Source: a virus
Reading direction: 5' to 3' (one strand)
Virus record (IMG/VR): IMGVR_UViG_3300043446_000264
Coordinates: 1 to 26,016 of that record
DNA length: 26,016 nt
Positions 1 to 10,854 of the stretch are shown in pieces. A model generated the notes under the pieces. The model did no database searches. It was not told the DNA's origin and saw only the letters and a program-made list of their open reading frames with translations. The first letter of the stretch is position 1, and each line of letters starts with the position of its first letter. Both the position numbers and the translations under genes were made by a program.

Positions 1-1216
1 CGGTGCGATATGGGGCTTGCTGCGCGTTGATGATGTCAAACAACTCGCGTTGTTGCCTCATCTGATCCAGCGCCGTTTGCCGCTGCAACTCTGCTGCTCT
101 GTTTGCGGCATTTGCGCTGAGAGAGCCGCTAAATAGCGATCCAAGACCAGACAGCAATCCTGCAAGACCGGTTCCCGTCGACAACCCACCAAGCAAGCCG
201 CCAAGTCCACCGCCAACGCCGCCGCCTCCGCCGCCACCCGTACCGCCACCGACGCCGCCACCCGTACCGCCACCCGTACCGCCGCCCGTACCGCCGCCCG
301 TACCGCCTCCCGTACCGCCGCCCGTACCGCCTCCCATTCCAGTGCCCCCGGTGGGCAACAGTGTGCCTCCTGACCCTACTTTGACGCCAGCATCCCCAAG
401 ACCGCCAAGAGTGGTCAGTCCACCCAGGCCCGTCATCACATTTGTGCCAGTTACGGTTGCCCCAAGCGGCAAACCGGTCAGCGGGTTAAAGCCTGCCAAA
501 GTGCCAGCACCAGGCAATACCAATCCACCAGCGGTCATCAATGCGCCACTTCCACCAACGCCGCCCGTTAAATTAAGTCCTGACCCAAGCGTGGTTGCAA
601 GACCTTGACCGCCGCCCATATAGCCAAGGTTTGTGCCTACACCACCAGTGATGCCTTGACCGGCGTTCATCAAGTCAAGGTTTGCGCCCAAATAATCGGT
701 CGGCAACCCACCGCCTAGACCAGTTGAGCTTAGGCCGGTCGTGGTGATGTTTGGCCCACGCAATCCTGTGCCTTCAGCGCCTCTAAGTCCATAGTCAAAC
801 CCACCGCCTGCGCCACCACCACCCGTGGTCGCTGCTTCCGCGCCGCCAGTCAAATCAGCGCCGCCGAATGCGCCTTGCAATCCCGCAGACAGGGCTGCAG
901 CGCCCAAAACGCCTCCTATGCCCTTCAAGGATTCATTTGGGTCGACGGTATAAGTATGGCTAAATTGGCCGCCTGGGGTAAAAACGTTGTATTGATTGCT
1001 GCCTGTTTCTTGTGCATACCCCGTCAATTGCGGCGCACCATAGATAATCTCGCCACTTTCGCCGCCGTAGCCTAAGATTGGCCGGTCATACAGCGCACTA
1101 ACACCGCCGCCCAGGTTAACGCTCATGCCCTGTTCATTGGACATAGCGGCTTGCGCCTCACTCGGATTGATGACTCGATTGACCGCGCCTTCAATGCTGT
1201 CGATTAAATCTGGCAT
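1..1216 (-). CDS. Glycine-rich virion protein, possible DNA-ejection or tail-hub protein (3' end beyond window)
   Basis: An open frame of 405 codons runs without a stop from the ATG at 1216 to the window edge; an AGAAAAGAA purine stretch just upstream can serve as a weak ribosome binding site. The start reads MPDLIDSIEGAVNRVI. The middle is extremely rich in Gly, Thr, Leu and Ala, with a (GGGT)n tract at about residues 294-327 encoded by a 12-bp DNA repeat. The last visible residues turn into a charged, probably helical segment (RAAELQRQTALDQMRQQREL) followed by APYR. Phage proteins with this plan (Gly-rich N-terminus, then a helix and an APYR/APFR-like motif) are common after P22-type neck genes and are usually called structural. 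It follows gp10-like and a 78-aa gene, where P22 has gp26, gp14 and its ejection proteins, so an ejection or tail-hub role is inferred. No catalytic motif is visible. Confidence 0.7.
   Translation of the reverse strand, partial: MPDLIDSIEGAVNRVINPSEAQAAMSNEQGMSVNLGGGVSALYDRPILGYGGESGEIIYGAPQLTGYAQETGSNQYNVFTPGGQFSHTYTVDPNESLKGIGGVLGAAALSAGLQGAFGGADLTGGAEAATTGGGGAGGGFDYGLRGAEGTGLRGPNITTTGLSSTGLGGGLPTDYLGANLDLMNAGQGITGGVGTNLGYMGGGQGLATTLGSGLNLTGGVGGSGALMTAGGLVLPGAGTLAGFNPLTGLPLGATVTGTNVMTGLGGLTTLGGLGDAGVKVGSGGTLLPTGGTGMGGGTGGGTGGGTGGGTGGGTGGGTGGGVGGGTGGGGGGGVGGGLGGLLGGLSTGTGLAGLLSGLGSLFSGSLSANAANRAAELQRQTALDQMRQQRELFDIINAQQAPYRT
237..336 (-). repeat. 12-bp tandem repeat encoding a GGGT tract
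   Basis: About eight imperfect copies of a 12-bp unit, cccgtaccgccr on the plus strand, lie in frame within the glycine-rich protein. The variable base falls at a codon third position, so nearly every copy reads Gly-Gly-Gly-Thr. Copies at the low-coordinate end degenerate to GGGV and GGGG. Such a repeat can change length by replication slippage without shifting frame. Confidence 0.85.
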
Positions 1217-1230
1217 TTCTTTTCTCCGAT

Positions 1231-1467
1231 TCAGACGTCGTAGTACGGCACTTTTTGTGGCCTGCCATTGACCGTGATGGTGATGAATCCCACCGGCGCT
1301 GCAGGCAAAGTTGCCGATCCTGCAGTGGCCGTTGATGTGCTGGTGAAGTTCAGCAAATTAAGAAAGAACTGCTGCCATGCCCGCGTCGGACGGTTTGTGG
1401 CCCTGTCCAAGAACTCGGCTTGCGGGTATGGGTTGTTCTGCGAGACTGGCGAGATTCCGGTAGACAT
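1231..1467 (-). CDS. Small structural-type protein, function unknown
   Basis: Encodes 78 residues starting [16 protein letters not shown]. Two parts can be seen: an N-terminal segment with a Trp/Phe-rich amphipathic stretch (TRAWQQFFLNLL, about residues 28-39), and a C-terminal beta-type ending VGFITITVNGRPQKVPYYDV. Short proteins ending in a similar (G/F)xxTVxVNGxxxKxPYY motif occur in tail gene clusters of many phages. It begins at the last base of the gp10-like gene and ends 14 bp before the glycine-rich virion protein, so it is co-transcribed with tail genes. A minor tail or tail-tip role is inferred from position only. Confidence 0.75.
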   Translation of the reverse strand: MSTGISPVSQNNPYPQAEFLDRATNRPTRAWQQFFLNLLNFTSTSTATAGSATLPAAPVGFITITVNGRPQKVPYYDV

Positions 1468-3458
1468 CAGTTATCCCCCTGCGTGGCTTTCAAATTCGCA
1501 GACACAATGACCGCTTTTACAGGATCGCTTACCACCACCTCGAACACGCGATCCCGCGCCATGCCAAGTCGCCGCCAAATGGCTCGGTTCTTGTACTTTC
1601 CTTGCTGCCCAATGGTTACCCAATGTTCGTTAGACCATGTGCTACCGCCATCGTTTGACCACCGCAGCATAGCCTGCGGATATGTCGTAGTGTCTTGAAT
1701 GTTGATGGTTGACACTTCGCCGAGATACAAAATTTCGTTTGGCCCAACAGTCAAAGATTCACTTGGGTAAATGGTGTACGGCGATTGGATGGTCGAAGGC
1801 TGAATTGCGCCCGTCTGTATTGACAGTCCCGTTGTGCCAACTCCTGGCTGAAACTGAATCTGGAATTCGTCAAAATACTGCCGCTGCAGATCGGCCACCA
1901 AATGCGGAGCGCGGCGAAGTCTGCGGATTTCTTGCCCGTCATCGGTGTAGTTTTGCCGATCCAGCATGTAGACCTTGCCGTTTTCGTAGTCTCCAACTAG
2001 CACCATTCCTTGAAACAGCGCACAGCAGTTGCCTCGGTGTCTCTCGTAAACGTTGTCATTGTTTACATATAGCCACTTGTGCCACATCTGGGTAGCAATG
2101 TCGTACACCCAAGTGAGATCAATTGACGGGAAAGTCACCACATAGCACTCGTGGCCTTCTAGCTGATATGTCCACGCAATAGCATCTTCTACGTTTTGAC
2201 CCGTCAGAGTGTTCTCAACGGCATGGGTTGAGATGCGCTGCGGGATGTACCCGTTCATCTGCATGATCTGCGCTTCGCCGCGATTGTTGCGGCTTACATA
2301 CGCAAACGAATTGCCCAATCGAGCCACAGAAAACACTGCAGCAATGCCGTGTTGGGTTGATGTACCGGGAATGCGCTGAAACGGGAATGGCGTCAGTCCC
2401 GCATCCACCCACACCTCGGAGGACGTTTCGCCCAGCAGGTATACCTCTCGGTGGTCAACAATCAGCGACACCAAGTTGTCCGGGCCACCATCCTTTAGTC
2501 CATAGCTCAAGGCAGGGGAAATCGGACTCAGAAAGTCAGACGATCCCCATTTTTGTGTGCCTGGATCGTTGTAAACAAAGTAATTGTCGATGATGTCAAC
2601 GGTGTTTGCGCCCGAAAACGCCCCGTCAGACGATGGAATTTGGGTGAAATTCAGTGCGTAGATGGTCGTGCTGCCCACCGTTTGCGAACTGCTGATGGTG
2701 TACGTTCCTGCGCCGCCTGAGCCGGAACCAAACGACACAATCATCGTGTTGGCAGCGATTCCTGTGCCTTGGATGGTCTGCCCAAGATACAGAGTGCCAG
2801 ATGACACCGCACTCACAGTCAATGTCGTGCCGGAAATGCTGCCGGTTACCACTGCGCCAACGGTAACGGATGACAAAGACTGAGACACCACGGTTTGCGA
2901 GATGTTGACCGTATATGTGCCCGTGCCACCCGATCCTGTGCCAAGCGCGGTGATGACCGTTTCATTTGAAACACCCACGCCAAACACTTGCTGCCCAACT
3001 GCTAATGCGCCCGTGGACACGCTGCTGACCGTTAATGTTGTGCCGGAAATGTCTCCCGTAAACACTGCCGTCGCAGGCGCAGAAATCCTCCAGGTGTACC
3101 GGTATGCGCCGTCAACAATATAGACGTTGACTCCGTTATCGGTGATGCCAACCCGTCCGGTGGAGGTATTTAGAAACCCGACAATTGCGGGCGTCAAATT
3201 GGCGGTCAGGACATAAACGTAAGGCCCACACACCACCACGCACTGCTGGCCACCAGAAACCGTGCGGATACCCCGCACTTCTGCGTAATTCAGGACTACT
3301 TTAGTGGTCAGGCCTGGGGTTGGGTAAAGCGCGACCACCCCGCGCTGACCCGGTTGTTTGTTTGGGTCAACTTCGGGGAAGAAATTGATGCACTCCTGGG
3401 CATCCTGGTAAATGCTTGGGGCTTCGTAGGATGGGCCGACAAAACCGAAATCAGGCAT
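1467..3458 (-). CDS. P22 gp10-like packaged DNA stabilization (neck) protein
   Basis: Encodes 663 residues. In P22, gp10 binds below gp4 under the portal and closes the head after packaging. Family features seen: an N-terminus of the type [20 protein letters not shown] with [10 protein letters not shown] at about residues 23-32, the [20 protein letters not shown] segment at about 279-298, a repetitive beta-rich body, and a C-terminus containing [21 protein letters not shown]22 gp10 is about 470 residues; much of the extra length here is two tandem copies of an inserted domain (residues about 132-197 and 203-268) placed between YRYTWRIS and [11 protein letters not shown]. The ATG lies inside the last codons of the HNH gene, with AAGGAAGAAGG upstream as ribosome binding site. 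Identification is confident from motifs and context. Confidence 0.9.
2655..2852 (-). repeat. Inserted beta-type domain, copy 2 (within gp10-like)
   Basis: Encodes residues about 203-268 of the gp10-like protein: [19 protein letters not shown], then [15 protein letters not shown], then [20 protein letters not shown]. It aligns end to end with the copy at 2868-3065 and with the copy in the gp4-like gene at 4647-4853. The shared frame is TGxIxGxxLTVxxxxxG, a GQ or GM turn, GTGI, T.I, GxGGxGTY, QT. Parts of the DNA are still similar between copies (both gp10 copies keep gtgccggaaatg). Confidence 0.8.
2868..3065 (-). repeat. Inserted beta-type domain, copy 1 (within gp10-like)
   Basis: Encodes residues about 132-197 of the gp10-like protein: [54 protein letters not shown]. 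Same domain as the neighbouring copy and the one in gp4-like. The repeat sits in a loop, since the flanking family sequence (YRYTWRIS before, [11 protein letters not shown] after) appears uninterrupted once both copies are removed. Confidence 0.8.
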
Positions 3459-4047
3459 GACCTTCTTCCTTGTATGACTTGCCTCTCAGCAAAGTTTTCA
3501 TGGAAGGTAGGCTTAGGCCATAGCGCTCAGCAAGCTCCCGCACACCGACACCTTCAGAGCGTAATTGTCGTACTTCTCGGGCTTGTTGCATAGTCAATTT
3601 ACACCTTGGACCTTTGCCCGATGAAAAATCTGGCGATCTGCCCCTGGCAACCTTGTCGGCCATGTTGTCGGAATGTGTGCCAACCCGTAAATGTTTGGGG
3701 TTGCAGCAACACGGGTTGTCGCAGCTATGAAGTAAAAACCCTGATTCATCGCTGCTTCTAGGTGCTTTGAGATTTATTGCGCCCGGATAAACAAGGTTGT
3801 AGATAACTCGATGCGCGTAGTAATTCAAACTGTTAATTTGAACTCGGCCATATCCTGTCTTTGTTTTGACTCCGATCCAAGGCCAACACTCATCCTCACC
3901 TCGTTTGTCAACCTTACTCCACAGCACCTCTGGCGTATTTGCCGGCCGACCAGGTGGGCGCGGGCCTTCTCCATTTTTCTTTCGCCAATAGTATGCTTTT
4001 TGATACTCACGTTGTTTACGCAGCCGTTGCAGTTCTTTCTCGTCCAT
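3451..4047 (-). CDS. HNH endonuclease, free-standing homing type
   Basis: Encodes 198 residues. The N-terminus is a basic helix (residues 1-35) with repeated KQR/KK motifs. The centre has [18 protein letters not shown] and then the HNH core HRVIYNLV...[20 protein letters not shown] (about residues 78-123), with the first His in HRV, His/Cys in HSCDNP and NPKHL, typical of the HNH_3 type. The C-terminus ([18 protein letters not shown], then [20 protein letters not shown]) looks like a DNA-binding helix-turn-helix. It has a strong ribosome binding site (AAGGAG, 7 nt before ATG) and a candidate promoter. Its last 8 nt overlap the start of gp10-like. In P22, gp4 and gp10 are adjacent, so this gene looks like an insertion. 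Such enzymes usually nick a cognate intronless allele; that activity is inferred. Confidence 0.88.
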
Positions 4048-4074
4048 GTGGATGCTCCTTGTTGTAGAACATCC

Positions 4075-4103
4075 ATCCTAATCATTTATTAGTAATCCGT
4101 CAA
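4075..4103 (-). promoter_or_regulatory. Candidate sigma-70 promoter for the HNH gene
   Basis: On the minus strand, TTGACG (4098-4103) is followed after 17 bp by TAGGAT (4075-4080): 5/6 and 4/6 matches to the consensus. It lies in the 65-bp AT-rich gap between the stop of gp4-like and the HNH start. Seen by eye; not scored against a background model. Confidence 0.45.
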
Positions 4104-4112
4104 CCTAAAGAA

Positions 4113-5096
4113 TCAACGGAAGAAACCCCCCGAAAGTATCCAGCCGGCGTCCTTGGCCTTGCCGACCAATAGGCTGTCAGGATAGCGGGCGACCTGTTGG
4201 GGCTGCATATTTGTGCGTTTTAGGTTAGAAATTGCCTGTGCTGCGTAGCCTTGGATCATGGCGATCTGTACTTGGCTGTTTTTGCCGTACATGGGCATTA
4301 GTCTCTCGGCCAACGCCCACCTCAGGGCCATGGTGTAGCCCTTGGGAAACGCTATTTCACTGTTAATCGTGTCCCATTCGCTGAAAATGGTGTTGGCAAA
4401 GATGTGCATTTCGCCTTGGGCTGGGTTTGGCCATACAAATAGATTTCCCGAATCAGCGCCAGGGTTGAAATACAATGCTTTTGGCCATGGACCGTTGAGG
4501 GTTTTCAGGCCAATCATTTCGTATTCCTGCAGGCTCAGGATGGCCACAGGGTAGTCCAGACCGCCATTCAGAATCGGCTGGCCGTTAGAGGTGGTGTTGA
4601 TCCGCACAAATGCCGAGTCAATGTTCAGCGGCTTTTGGTAGTAGCCAGTGATCGTGGTGGATGCCGCGGTCTGGTTGATGTTGACCTGGTACGTGCCCTG
4701 CTCGTTGACGTTGCCGCCAGCGCCGGTCAGAAACTCGGTGATCTTGGTGCCGGTGGTGATTCCCGTGCCACTCAGGGTCATTCCTTGCGCCACTGCGCCT
4801 GACAGAATGCCGGTAACCGTCAGCACGTTTCCGGTAATTGAGCCGGTGAACTGTGACCCGATAAAGTTGGCCGTGCTGGGCGTTGGGCCGATGGTGTACT
4901 GCGTTTGCCCCGAAATCAGCGGAAAAATAATTTCCGTGACGTTATAGACCAACAAGTTGTTGTTCGACCATTGATCAATCAACTCATTGAGCATATCGAA
5001 CGCATCTTGCGCTGCTTCCGGTGTCGGAGTCTCGCCAGCTTCCAATGCGCCGATGTCTTTTAGCGCACGGGTGATGATTTCGATGGGCTGGGTCAT
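4113..5096 (-). CDS. P22 gp4-like tail accessory (neck) protein
   Basis: Encodes 327 residues; P22 gp4 is about 166. In P22, gp4 binds the portal and starts the tail machine. The N-terminus [20 protein letters not shown], then [20 protein letters not shown], matches the helical start of this family, followed by the beta segment [16 protein letters not shown]. Residues about 82-150 are an inserted domain, the same one found twice in gp10-like. After it the family pattern resumes with [12 protein letters not shown], then [38 protein letters not shown], and a helical end with [15 protein letters not shown]. The ATG at 5096 follows the stop of the upstream gene at 5099. Length and order fit the longer gp4-type proteins of non-enteric phages plus the insert. 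Confidence 0.9.
4647..4853 (-). repeat. Inserted beta-type domain, copy in gp4-like
   Basis: Encodes residues about 82-150: [54 protein letters not shown]. Homologous to the two copies in gp10-like, with a few extra residues (NVNEQ) before GTY. It interrupts the expected link between QTQYTIGP and [12 protein letters not shown]. Confidence 0.8.
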
Positions 5097-5898: not shown

Positions 5899-7947
5899 TT
5901 ATGCGATGGCAAGCGCTATGTACGAAACGCCGTTGGTGTTGACGCCTGTTAGTTTGGATTCGTCCACAGCAAATCCGCTAGACACTGTTGTGCAAGCACC
6001 AGTTGTTGCAGATTCTGCCGCAGTGCTGTTCAAGGCAAGCCACGGGTCTGTGCTGGTTGTCATGCCACGAGCCGTGTCAAAAACAAGCCAGTTTCCAGTT
6101 GTGCTGGTTGCTTTTATAAGAACAAACCGCGCACCCCCTGTAAAATCACAATTAATGGTTTGCGTTGAGCCGTTGCCAGTAAAACTTGTTACTTTGCTCA
6201 CGCCGGGGCAGGAGGCAAAGAGGTAAGCGACATATGTTCCACCGCTTAAATTGACACCAGAACTTGTACCAACAGTGAATACAGATGACGTTGGTGCAGT
6301 GTCATTCCATGTACTTGTCTGAGCGCTTGACGCTACTGTTTGATCCAGCAATAACCGATTTGTCCAGCCGTTGGGCGTGTTTCCAACAACCCAGCTTCTG
6401 GCAACGTTGCGTTGCTTCACAATCATCAACTCAGGCGCAACACCCAAGTTATGCGTCACAGTCGTTGCAGAACCCGTCCCCGTATAGCACACCACATCAA
6501 AGAAGCCGGGGGCGCGGGTAAATAGATAGTTAATGTATTCCTGCCCGGAAGCGTTTGTTACCGTAACCGCTCCTCCAGTACCGACTTTTACCCCGCTCAT
6601 TACATCCCAAGGATTAGATTGCAAAGCGGCAGTGCCAGCACCGCTTTGAGCATCAGTAGCGGAAGACAACAGGAAGTTGTTATAAGTTATTCGCGCTGCC
6701 CAAAATGGAGTTTGCGTAATAACCGTGTTTCTGTTTTTTATAATTGCAAGATCAGAAACACCTGAAGACCCCGCAACCGTAGTGTTTGCGCTAGTTCCAC
6801 TACGTGCTACCGGGCTGAACACACTCGTCCCACTCGTCGGCGTTTTCATCGGGCCGCGACGGATGGCGATGTAGATGTAGGTGTTGTTTGCCGGGTAGTT
6901 AACGTCGTTGTATCCGTTTCCATTTGGATCAACCGTGAACCCGGTAGCATTGAAATCTATGTAAGGCGTGTTTGTAAACTCGGCCCCGCTAGTGTTCGCC
7001 AAAAGAGTTGCGTCGTTGCCGCCAGTTGGAACCCCGCGCATATTGTCAAACATTACCCAGTTGGTTGGCCCACTGCCCGCGCCGCTTTGAGTGGCGGCCT
7101 TAATCAAAACAAACTGAGGCTCCCATCCCAGATTGATGCTTGGTTTGCTCGGGTAAGAACTCGTATAACTCCCGCACGAAATCACATTGTCCGTACCAGT
7201 AAGGCCAAAGCCTCCTGCGTTGTGGGCGAATAGGTAGGCGACGTAGGTTGCGCCGTTAACATTAGTCAGTGTTGATCCACCGCCAGCGCCATCAGACCCA
7301 AGCGTGAATGATGTGGATGATACGGACGAAACTGTGTAAGAAGGCCCAGAGGTTTGCGCGGCAGTAGTGTTTAAAAATACCCTGTAATCTTCAGGCCCAA
7401 CGCCGCCGTTTAAAGACCTATGATACACAGCCCAATCACTAGTGCTATCAGTGCGTTTAAAAATAATGCACCCCGGTGTAGACCCTAGGCTATGGTTAAT
7501 CACTTTCCCAGTTAATCCATTCCCCGTATACGTCACCACATCAAAGAACTTCGGCTGCTTGCGGAAGGTCCATGAGGCGTAGGTGTAGGCGCTCGTATTG
7601 ATTGACACGTTTGTGCCAATTGAAAAACCGTTGGTATTAAAAGACGTGACGTACCCAAGACCTGTCCAGTCTTGTTGGGCGTTGGTTAGGTTTTGCTGCA
7701 AACCATTGGTAATCCCGCGTGCGCTGTCAACGCAGCGCCAATCTTCCGCAGGGCTGCTGCGCTGCTTGATCCATACCATGCCGCCTTTGGTGGACAGATC
7801 GACGCCGTTATTGAACGTCTGGTTTGCTCCAGTGCCAGTGTAGAGGTACGTCGAAAAGACGTCCTCGATGTAGGTGGCAACGCCGGTCTTGGCAAATTGC
7901 CCGTAGCCTTGCGATGACAGCGAACCCTCTGCTGCAATAATCGGCAT
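5899..7947 (-). CDS. Large tail-fibre/receptor-binding protein with six tandem repeats
   Basis: Encodes 682 residues built from about six diverged copies of a 100-115 residue unit. Each unit tends to have a phenotype (F/Y)TGxG...(H/N)xLGxxPxxxIxK, then W.V(F/Y)(D/H)...G, then a beta stretch ending TYVAYLFA or an equivalent. Clear copies begin near VVTYTGNGLTGKVINHSLGS and VVCYTGTGSATTVTHNLGVA; more diverged ones begin near YTGTGANQTF, ISCGSYTSSY, SGTSANTTVA and TSFTGNGSTQTI. The start MPIIAAEGSLSSQGYGQFAK is a short adaptor-like segment. No signal peptide. It lies among fibre genes and right before the fibre chaperone, which supports a host-contact role; the receptor cannot be inferred. Confidence 0.82.
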   Translation of the reverse strand: MPIIAAEGSLSSQGYGQFAKTGVATYIEDVFSTYLYTGTGANQTFNNGVDLSTKGGMVWIKQRSSPAEDWRCVDSARGITNGLQQNLTNAQQDWTGLGYVTSFNTNGFSIGTNVSINTSAYTYASWTFRKQPKFFDVVTYTGNGLTGKVINHSLGSTPGCIIFKRTDSTSDWAVYHRSLNGGVGPEDYRVFLNTTAAQTSGPSYTVSSVSSTSFTLGSDGAGGGSTLTNVNGATYVAYLFAHNAGGFGLTGTDNVISCGSYTSSYPSKPSINLGWEPQFVLIKAATQSGAGSGPTNWVMFDNMRGVPTGGNDATLLANTSGAEFTNTPYIDFNATGFTVDPNGNGYNDVNYPANNTYIYIAIRRGPMKTPTSGTSVFSPVARSGTSANTTVAGSSGVSDLAIIKNRNTVITQTPFWAARITYNNFLLSSATDAQSGAGTAALQSNPWDVMSGVKVGTGGAVTVTNASGQEYINYLFTRAPGFFDVVCYTGTGSATTVTHNLGVAPELMIVKQRNVARSWVVGNTPNGWTNRLLLDQTVASSAQTSTWNDTAPTSSVFTVGTSSGVNLSGGTYVAYLFASCPGVSKVTSFTGNGSTQTINCDFTGGARFVLIKATSTTGNWLVFDTARGMTTSTDPWLALNSTAAESATTGACTTVSSGFAVDESKLTGVNTNGVSYIALAIA

Positions 7948-8685: not shown

Positions 8686-10854
8686 TTACGGTGCAATGAT
8701 GAGCTGGTTAGCGGTCAACGCGCCCGTGCTCGGGTTGAATTTGAGCTTGGTTGAACTGACGTATTCGGTGGTCAGGTTGCCAGTGGTGGTCGCGGCGAAC
8801 AGGATGTACCGCGTTGCGTTCGTCGTGGTGTCATCCGTCACCGTGGCATAGGCCGTAGGCGTTGTCCAGGTCGGCGCTCCCGATCCGTTGGACGTCAGAA
8901 CTTGGCCAGACGTTCCAGCGCTGGTGAAGGCATATGCCGTGCCGGTTCCGTATGCCACAGCCCCTGCGGTTGGGGTGGCCGTGCCGTTCGTGCCGCCTTG
9001 TCCAATCGCCACCTGGCCAATGATGTAGCCAGTATCGATTGACTTGTTGTCAGGGACGATCAGCAGCTTACCGTTGTTTGTGTTGCTATACAAACAAACG
9101 CCCATGTGAACCGCATAGTTCGGGGTGGACGGTTCTGTCTGCGTCAGCGCTCCAGGCGTTGTGGCCGAAAGATAGATGTTCTGGCCAGCGGTCAGGCCTG
9201 CCGTGTTGACGTTTTCCACGGTTCCGTAAATGACCACGTACCCGTCGCTATTGTTGGGAATGTCTTGAACGGTAACGCCGATGACTTGAGATGACGTGTA
9301 GGAGTTTGCCTGGGCAAGAATGATGTTGCCAATCTGTCCCGTTGATCCCGAGATGTAGACCACCTGACCCTTGGTAATCGTTGATCCGGTGGAGTTTCTG
9401 ACCTGTTGCTGCAGCTGGGCGCCGACACGAACGATGTTGTTCGTCGTGTCGTTGTAGTAGGACAATGTGGCCGTGCCGCTGTCGTACCACATCCGTCCAG
9501 CGGTGTAGGTGGGCGCTCCATTGGCTGTCCACGTTGCGTAATTGCTGACACTTGGGTTTGCCAACGTCAGGGCCGTTACCGTGGTCGTGGTGCTGCCAAG
9601 GCTGATTGATGTCGACCCGAGCGTGAAGCTCGAGGTGGTCAGCGCAGACGGTGGAATGCCCGAGAAATTGGTGCCGGTAAGCGTCGGGGTGGTTGTCCAC
9701 GCCAATCCGCTGTTGGACTGCAGCACGCCATTGGATGCGCTCAGGAACGATGTTGCGCCTGCTCCGGTCTGATACGGCAGCGCGTTAGCTGTTCCACCGG
9801 CCAGATTGGTCGCTGTCGTGGCGGTTGTGGCGCTTCCCGCGGTTGTGGCGGTGGCCGCGTTGCCGCCGATGGACAAGCCGCTTGCCGTGCCCGTTAAACC
9901 CGTTCCTGGCCCACTAAATTGGGTATTTGCGGTGATCGTCGTGCCCGTAACCGCTGCCGCGGTGCTGCCGCCAATCGTTGTGCCATCAATTGATCCACCC
10001 GTAATCGCTACGTTTGAGGCGTTTTGGGTAGACATCGTGCCAAGGCCCGAGACTTGGGTGTTGGCAATCGCAATCGGAGTCGTTGCGGCGAGCGTCAGCT
10101 GCCCCTGCGCGTTAACCGTGAAGGTCGCCACGCTTGAGGATGATCCGTAGCTGTTGGCGGTAACTCCAGTATTGGTGATGCTGAACTGATACCCGGCAAG
10201 CGTCAGTCCTGTGCCCGCGGTGTAGGTCGCCGCAACTGAGAAATTTGACCAGTTGACCGCACTTGAACCAAGCGTGCCGCCAGGCTGTGCGGAACAGTAC
10301 CATGCCGACCCTGCCAGAGTAGCACCCGATTCCACGAACACAAGCGCGGAGACCAGTTCATCCCAAGCATTTGCATCGTTTGCCCTCGTCCAACCACTAG
10401 ACGCCGCCACATAAATGCCGTTTTCAGCCGCTGCGCTCTGGTTTTTCACCAGCACACGCATTCCAGCGGTCAGGCTAGAAGTCCAATCGCCTCCTGCCTG
10501 CGTTCCAAGGCCAGAAAGCGTGATGTTGGCCGTGGTTCCGTAGTTGACAGGCGGCTTCCACGAAATCCCAGCCACATAGTTGTCCACGTACGCCTTGTTA
10601 GCGACGTCTGTCGCTCCTGTGGGCGTTGCGGCAACCGTGGCGCTAGTAAATGCGCCCGTAGATGGGGTTGTTGCACCGATCGGCGAGCTGTCAATCGTGC
10701 TGCTGGTGATGTGCAGACCAGATTGATTAGGGTCAATCGTTGCGGTGAACGGCTGGCCCTGGCCAATAAACGTCTGAAACGTACCGTTGACGTTAAATAA
10801 CGCCTGTACGGGCAGAAGGTTCTGCGTACTTGTCAGGGCTGTTTGGTTAGACAT
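8686..10854 (-). CDS. Long tail fibre protein
   Basis: Encodes 722 residues. The N-terminus (STQNLLPVQALFNVNGTFQT) resembles that of the next gene upstream, and probably anchors the fibre to the virion. Then come IGATTPSTGAFTSATVAATP and DVANKAYVDNYVAGISWKPP, followed by a domain with AGMRVLVKNQSAAAENGIYV, GWTRANDANAWDELVSALVF and WYCSAQPGG (about residues 128-200), frequent in phage fibres. The middle is Ala/Thr/Gly repeat shaft. Near the C-terminus is VRNSTGSTITKGQVVYISGS ... GVTVQDIPNNSDGYVVIYG ... NYAVHMGVCLYS (about residues 485-605), another fibre-associated domain, then a GQVAIGQGGTN linker and a TLPxx-type ending. No enzymatic motif is visible. Confidence 0.87.
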   Translation of the reverse strand: MSNQTALTSTQNLLPVQALFNVNGTFQTFIGQGQPFTATIDPNQSGLHITSSTIDSSPIGATTPSTGAFTSATVAATPTGATDVANKAYVDNYVAGISWKPPVNYGTTANITLSGLGTQAGGDWTSSLTAGMRVLVKNQSAAAENGIYVAASSGWTRANDANAWDELVSALVFVESGATLAGSAWYCSAQPGGTLGSSAVNWSNFSVAATYTAGTGLTLAGYQFSITNTGVTANSYGSSSSVATFTVNAQGQLTLAATTPIAIANTQVSGLGTMSTQNASNVAITGGSIDGTTIGGSTAAAVTGTTITANTQFSGPGTGLTGTASGLSIGGNAATATTAGSATTATTATNLAGGTANALPYQTGAGATSFLSASNGVLQSNSGLAWTTTPTLTGTNFSGIPPSALTTSSFTLGSTSISLGSTTTTVTALTLANPSVSNYATWTANGAPTYTAGRMWYDSGTATLSYYNDTTNNIVRVGAQLQQQVRNSTGSTITKGQVVYISGSTGQIGNIILAQANSYTSSQVIGVTVQDIPNNSDGYVVIYGTVENVNTAGLTAGQNIYLSATTPGALTQTEPSTPNYAVHMGVCLYSNTNNGKLLIVPDNKSIDTGYIIGQVAIGQGGTNGTATPTAGAVAYGTGTAYAFTSAGTSGQVLTSNGSGAPTWTTPTAYATVTDDTTTNATRYILFAATTTGNLTTEYVSSTKLKFNPSTGALTANQLIIAP

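Follow-up and report, generated by a model that had tools for sequence, protein, structure and literature searches.

Modules in the neck genes

The window analysed here is a virus record of 26,016 bases (IMG/VR record IMGVR_UViG_3300043446_000264), taken at its full length, and our subject is a module of about 65 residues, beta-rich by prediction, that occurs twice in its gp10-like and once in its gp4-like neck protein. Scores given below in bits were obtained with a profile whose rows leave out the window and its closest relative (L012), the row set having originally been gathered with the window modules as seed.

1467-3458, minus strand: gp10-like packaged-DNA stabilisation / head closure Hc3 protein, 663 amino acids, two modules
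2658-2849, minus strand: module 10B, gp10-like residues 204-267, profile score 88.9 bits
2874-3062, minus strand: module 10A, gp10-like residues 133-195, profile score 86.9 bits
3451-4047, minus strand: HNH endonuclease gene, between the gp4-like and gp10-like genes
4113-5096, minus strand: gp4-like head-tail adaptor, 327 amino acids, one module
4647-4850, minus strand: module 4, gp4-like residues 83-150, profile score 76.0 bits

Three copies had been proposed from the letters alone (hereafter the sequence-only reading), and the profile places their boundaries close to the proposed ones, with scores far above chance. Pairwise alignments of the three copies scored 181, 141 and 145 against best shuffled scores of 77, 83 and 75 (2000 shuffles each), i.e. 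1.7 to 2.4 times the best shuffled score, and none of 1000 shuffled proteins matched the module profile at E<=10. Module 10B, used as query against the 26 kb record, hit three places at E<=0.1 and no fourth. The sequence-only reading had put its feature at 2655-4853; the modules do lie there, but not as a single continuous feature, because the HNH endonuclease gene separates the two neck genes. This gene, which overlaps the start of the gp10-like gene by 8 bases, may be a free-standing homing endonuclease. In phage MW202674, an annotated endonuclease likewise lies between the gp4 and gp10 genes.

Searches of Pfam, NCBIfam and PDB sequences with the module returned nothing significant, and a Pfam scan of the modules gave no Ig family at cut-off, the nearest entry being Big_6 (E 0.76, below cut-off). 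PHROG models 21413 and 38233 include the module as one stretch of longer profiles. Matches by tblastn, at least two and at least one phage records and no plasmids, are floors because the BLAST low-complexity filter was on. No description of the module was seen among the papers listed, a weak negative, as an unnamed domain cannot be searched by name.

P22-type cores and the insertion sites

Comparisons with protein families and solved structures support P22-type cores for both predicted neck proteins. The gp10-like protein matches phrog_578 (head closure Hc3, E 2e-100) and, by profile, P22 gp10 (E 6.6e-6), and its predicted fold superposes on P22 gp10 in 8eap (VIA Z 33.8, 384 residues, 3.0 Å). 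The gp4-like protein matches phrog_12985 (E 8.4e-40) and Pfam SU10_adaptor (35.9 bits, cut-off 27), and its predicted fold superposes on 8u10 chain m, regarded as P22 gp4 on account of its length (VIA Z 14.2, 111 residues, 2.2 Å). Genes for a P22-type portal (P22_portal, E 4.3e-175) and a P22-type coat protein (P22_CoatProtein, E 6.1e-36) are both present in the record, as in a P22-like morphogenetic module.

The three segments are insertions into the gp4 and gp10 cores. In the gp10 alignment, 9 of 29 rows lack both modules, i.e. the segment between residues ~131 and ~271, at 56-64% identity to the window gp10-like protein, and in 83 module-less gp10 proteins the two core halves stand 11-14 residues apart. 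The gp4 of Rhodoferax phage P26218 has no insert, and phages MW202520 and MW202674 carry the gp4 module without gp10 modules. P22 gp4 and gp10 align to the window proteins without the modules, which are absent from the matched P22 structures, as the sequence-only reading had stated. The proposal that the family sequence resumes directly after each insert is likewise borne out by the module-less gp10 rows and by the P26218 gp4, and the existence of such relatives speaks, as far as tested, against segments that always belong to the core fold. We note that at the gp4 insertion site the adaptor of Xanthomonas phage PBR31 (L006, 5045-5995) contains a stretch of comparable length that looks like a diverged module, although the module profile misses it.

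Predicted fold of the module

In the structural models, the predicted strands of module 4 span gp4 residues 80-99, 107-109, 118-124 and 134-152, those of module 10A gp10 residues 131-150, 156-159, 168-171 and 180-199, and those of module 10B gp10 residues 202-221, 228-230, 239-243 and 251-268. The predicted strand order is equal in all three, so that, as far as tested, the copies do not differ in predicted structure, the comparison being one of strand order and length only. Mean predicted local distance difference test (pLDDT) scores are 74.2 for the gp4 model and 73.9 for the gp10 model, where residues 1-45, 514-553 and 583-663 fall under 50; ten-residue blocks within the modules average 75-94 in gp10 and 58-92 in gp4.

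Fold searches were run with whole proteins, and their results are dominated by the cores. Among the best 50 rows for the gp10 model, none was seen to match a module alone. For the module part of the gp4 model, the best match among solved structures is to the "Decoration protein" of Arthrobacter phage Bridgette, 8eci chain 1 (VIA Z 6.7, 65 residues, 2.1 Å, 23% identity). This match is a lead that falls short of proving homology, because baseplate chains of P1 and phiKZ (6.6) and translation-factor barrels (6.2-6.5) score nearly equally in the same table.

Distribution across loci and order of gain

A first scan of viral contigs found that at least 401 of 600 candidate stretches encode a relative, of which the best 80 were used. 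In total, 244 loci were taken (the window, four named phages and loci from three scans); both genes are whole in 195, corresponding to 159 distinct loci, and the other 49 were left uncounted. Since two of the three scans used the module as query, and the third used gp10 cores with its best 80 leaning to module-less gp10, the following counts are not population frequencies. The gp4 protein has one module in 141 of the 159 loci, two in 16 and none detected in two (P26218 and PBR31). For gp10, 83 loci have no module, 64 have two, nine have three and three have four, and a single module occurs in 0/159. In 81 loci, gp10 is bare while gp4 has one or two modules. The sequence-only reading regarded the module in two successive neck layers as unusual, an assessment that is not supported among these loci, where 157/159 carry a gp4 module and 76/159 gp10 modules.

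On a tree of gp10 cores, from which the insert was left out, module presence in gp10 is explained by one change (branch support 99), and a single gain is the simplest reading because the outgroup phages have no gp10 modules. Changes in module number along this tree amount to seven in gp10, the gain included, and eight in gp4. By parsimony, gp4 would have been decorated first, and gp10 once and later.

Relations among copies and selection

In a first tree of 165 distinct modules, the copies group by site: clades hold 48/48 modules of the first gp10 site, 41/42 of the second and 56/56 of gp4, with local support of 0.96, 0.88 and 0.87, respectively. In a wider tree, built from a thinned set of 230 that includes 146 modules from other proteins, the best clades hold 24/27 10A, 24/26 10B and 31/31 gp4 modules (the last plus one other), with local support of 0.30, 0.76 and 0.95, and 10A and 10B are not joined. 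With a 90-row test set, the free tree keeps gp4 alone together, and not 10A or 10B. The approximately unbiased (AU) test on these rows rejects no grouping, neither 10A alone (p 0.34) or 10B alone (p 0.71) nor 10A with 10B (p 0.46) or all three sites (p 0.19), and thus leaves standing both a tandem duplication that gave 10A and 10B and one common capture for all sites.

Spread by domain copying within the genome had been proposed as well. For 10A-10B, copies from one genome lie at a mean distance of 0.418 and copies from different genomes at 0.424; the corresponding values are 0.450 and 0.463 for 10A-4, and 0.482 and 0.475 for 10B-4. Because copies are no closer within a genome than between genomes, recent copying of this kind is not supported.

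Pooled ratios of nonsynonymous to synonymous divergence (dN/dS) were taken over locus pairs whose gp10-core proportion of synonymous differences (pS) lies between 0.05 and 0.40, and are descriptive because the pairs are not independent. They are 0.064 for the gp10 core and 0.038 for the gp4 core (66 pairs each), and 0.106 for module 10A, 0.069 for 10B (24 pairs each) and 0.076 for the gp4 module (43 pairs). Judged by these values, all well below 1, the modules are under purifying selection and slightly less constrained than their host cores.

The module in other virion proteins

The module is not special to the neck and occurs in head, neck, tail-sheath, baseplate and fibre-like proteins of quite different phages. 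It was found in 365 open frames, a count that includes copies of the window and overlapping contigs, and 129 of these are neither gp4- nor gp10-like by core match. Nine other hosts, eight from viral contigs and one from phage record MW202545, were scanned with PHROGs. Three are phrog_3287 virion structural proteins (L030, L041 and L081), in which the module lies at frame residues 120, 194 and 220, respectively, and its flanks differ by eye. One is a baseplate wedge protein (phrog_438, L032), and two have tail-fibre family matches outside the module (L044 and L047); L031 matches several virion and unknown families, and L084 and L007 have no clear host family. The module stretch is matched by phrog_21413 in 9/9 of these hosts and by phrog_38233 in 8/9 (the baseplate wedge protein excepted, among the rows shown). 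L047 and L059 belong to a lineage with a bare gp10, directly downstream of which lies the gene for a 481-residue fibre-like protein with the module.

Ahead of its module, the phrog_3287 protein of L081 (2176-4290) has a weak endosialidase beta-barrel match (PF12195, E 3.8e-5, below cut-off). Very long or repeat-rich proteins (L134, L125, L191 and G042) hold several modules each: five in a Bacteroidota protein (2296-residue frame), six in a Chloroflexi frame, three in a 6481-residue viral frame and two in a 3847-residue frame of G042.

Modules in several virion layers

A genome scan yielded 72 loci, and 17 of their bacterial genomes were searched whole; in seven of these (G027-G033), the module is found in neighbouring genes. 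The module-bearing frames of G027-G032 were scanned for families. In Rhizobium rhizogenes (G028), Rhizobium sp. ASV20 (G030), Paraburkholderia elongata (G031) and Bradyrhizobium oropedii (G032), modules occur together in a minor head protein (phrog_2122), a terminator-type protein (phrog_1876), the sheath (phrog_205) and a baseplate wedge protein (phrog_6), and P. elongata has the module additionally in an esterase-like protein. In R. freirei (G029), they occur in a virion structural protein (phrog_3645), the terminator-type protein, the sheath and the baseplate wedge. On an 18 kb contig of a Sulfuritalea metagenome-assembled genome (G027), the minor head, head (phrog_1912), terminator-type and sheath proteins carry modules, as does a 208-residue frame that has no family. 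Some of the minor head, terminator-type and baseplate copies are weak (up to E 6e-4), and the name "terminator" is that of NCBIfam NF047498 on the R. rhizogenes protein, phrog_1876 carrying no function.

These genomes are not independent cases, because protein families and order are shared, and their gene content suggests that the multi-layer prophage regions represent one broad myophage lineage. The sheath of Rhizobium sp. ASV20 is similar to 142 phage records, and the best 15 of the 142, of which some are annotated as tail sheath and the rest as hypothetical, align in two pieces covering 73-81%. Such two-piece alignments are consistent with an insert in the sheath as well.

Other genes of the record

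Further protein-coding frames of the window are the following.

2-1216, minus strand: frame very rich in glycine (GGGTGG repeats), truncated by the end of the record; Pfam and PHROG scans gave nothing at E 0.001
5899-7947, minus strand: 682-residue protein with three DUF7483 stretches; tail-fibre-like by PHROG
8686-10854, minus strand: 722-residue protein matched in part by a head decoration PHROG (phrog_2647) and by unknown families

Proposed role and alternatives

We lean towards the view that the module is a promiscuous virion-surface decoration domain, whose likeliest role is weak multivalent adhesion. General-purpose decoration is probable because the same domain is present in head, neck, sheath and baseplate proteins of different phages. 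Phages would slot this small beta-rich domain into loops, or onto ends, of many structural proteins. An outward position is suggested by the loop sites of the inserts and by the sheath and baseplate hosts, proteins that are exposed on the particle. In the window phage, modules would project from the adaptor ring (gp4) and from the next ring (gp10), so that, at the copy numbers of P22 (12 gp4 and 6 gp10), 12 + 12 modules would be arranged round the neck. Weak multivalent contacts of these modules with polysaccharide or some other surface may then supplement the receptor-binding proteins with avidity. More tentatively, and with some doubt, we propose that tailed phages widely share the module as a coating unit, which would extend in some virions from the head through terminator and sheath to the baseplate, and in a separate P22-like lineage over both neck rings.

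Several observations weigh against these proposals. Gly and Thr make up most of the conserved residues of the module, and a reading of the alignments shows no obvious binding site; no carbohydrate-binding module family is among the module matches in the family scans; and baseplate chains and translation-factor barrels rank beside the decoration protein in the fold table. Furthermore, 10 of the 17 bacterial genomes have the module in one frame per contig, and 9 of the 28 records with the module give one match only.

As the main rival, which we regard as less likely, the modules could serve as a structural clamp that bridges the 12-fold gp4 and 6-fold gp10 rings or braces the neck, for instance by leaning on the tailspike seats or the capsid vertex. 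With 12 gp4 and 6 gp10 in the P22 virion, as reported in PMC8402733, 12 x 1 gp4 modules would face 6 x 2 gp10 modules, and gp10 never has exactly one module in the 159 loci. The Ig-like domain of the roseophage R4C adaptor contacts the capsid, and its authors favour local stability (PMC10276861), while the solved look-alike of the module is a decoration protein, a class described as often cementing capsids (PMC7602432). However, the pattern of none or at least two gp10 modules corresponds to a single change on the tree, and no matching between gp4 and gp10 modules is required, because gp10 is bare in 81 loci with a decorated gp4. Module numbers also vary (1-2 in gp4, 0-4 in gp10), which together with the bare loci weakens 12:6 matching as a rule, and ring mismatch is irrelevant in the sheath, baseplate and fibre-like proteins that also carry the module.

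A near-neutral passenger, i.e. a segment that spreads as a harmless recombination product in Gly/Thr-rich repeats, would agree with the presence of the module in many unrelated proteins and with its repeated changes in number (seven for gp10, eight for gp4). Nevertheless, this appears improbable in view of pooled module dN/dS values of 0.07-0.11, the absence of any sign of recent homogenisation between sites, and a gp4 module in 157/159 loci, though two of the three scans used the module as query. Least probable of all, and already disfavoured by the module-less relatives, is an ordinary elaboration of the core fold of the gp4/gp10 family; the gp4 module is nearly universal among the sampled loci, as such an elaboration would be, but P22 gp4 and gp10 align without it, it is missing from the P26218 gp4 and from 83/159 gp10 proteins, and it is found in other protein families.

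These findings point to a widespread phage domain without a name in the family libraries searched. If it binds surfaces, it would be relevant to the way in which phages stay on hosts or particles, and it would help to annotate hypothetical proteins of environmental phages. Adaptor, hub, sheath and terminator-type proteins each have a domain-tolerant site.

Comparison with known systems

P22 gp4 and gp10 share the core folds of the window proteins and differ in the absence of modules, and domain shuffling in neck passage structures has already been published (PMC10684548). The Bridgette decoration protein (8eci), of which chain residues 7-77 superpose on the gp4 module (2.1 Å, 65 residues), differs in being a stand-alone decoration protein whose sequence relation to the module is not significant: it is absent from the module-profile A5 matches and shows a faint likeness with the PBR31 variant (E 9.8).

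For a stabilising role, the nearest precedent is the adaptor of roseophage R4C, described as a dodecamer with an additional beta domain at its periphery. This Ig-like attachment domain touches the capsid round the fivefold vertex, and the authors prefer local stability over adsorption as its role (PMC10276861). The R4C case differs, according to the same account, in that the domain is N-terminal, belongs to a siphophage adaptor and makes capsid contact. For adhesion, the nearest tested precedent is the carbohydrate-binding modules of the 936 lactococcal phages, reported in the neck passage structure, the major tail protein and Dit, where host binding was seen with fluorescent fusions (PMC6669499). 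These modules, too, occupy neck and tail layers of one virion, but they are of named types and sit in other proteins, those of the neck being described as ending triple-helix fibres and not as lying inside gp4 or gp10 (PMC6669499).

As a kind of domain, the module stands nearest to the phage Ig-like domains, which a review presents as promiscuous, present on several virion protein classes and often peripheral, with a suspected role in adsorption (Fraser et al. 2006, via PMC9022992), and for which the review passage names fibres, baseplate, tail tube, major capsid protein and Hoc as hosts (PMC9022992). The module differs from them in the lack of an Ig family match at cut-off and in its additional presence in gp10, terminator-type and sheath proteins. 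Like them, it is small, beta, promiscuous and found in several classes of virion structural protein, and, if it is indeed a shared coating unit, particles would wear a multivalent coat of a single chemistry, and the module would be a counterpart of these domains outside the Ig class.

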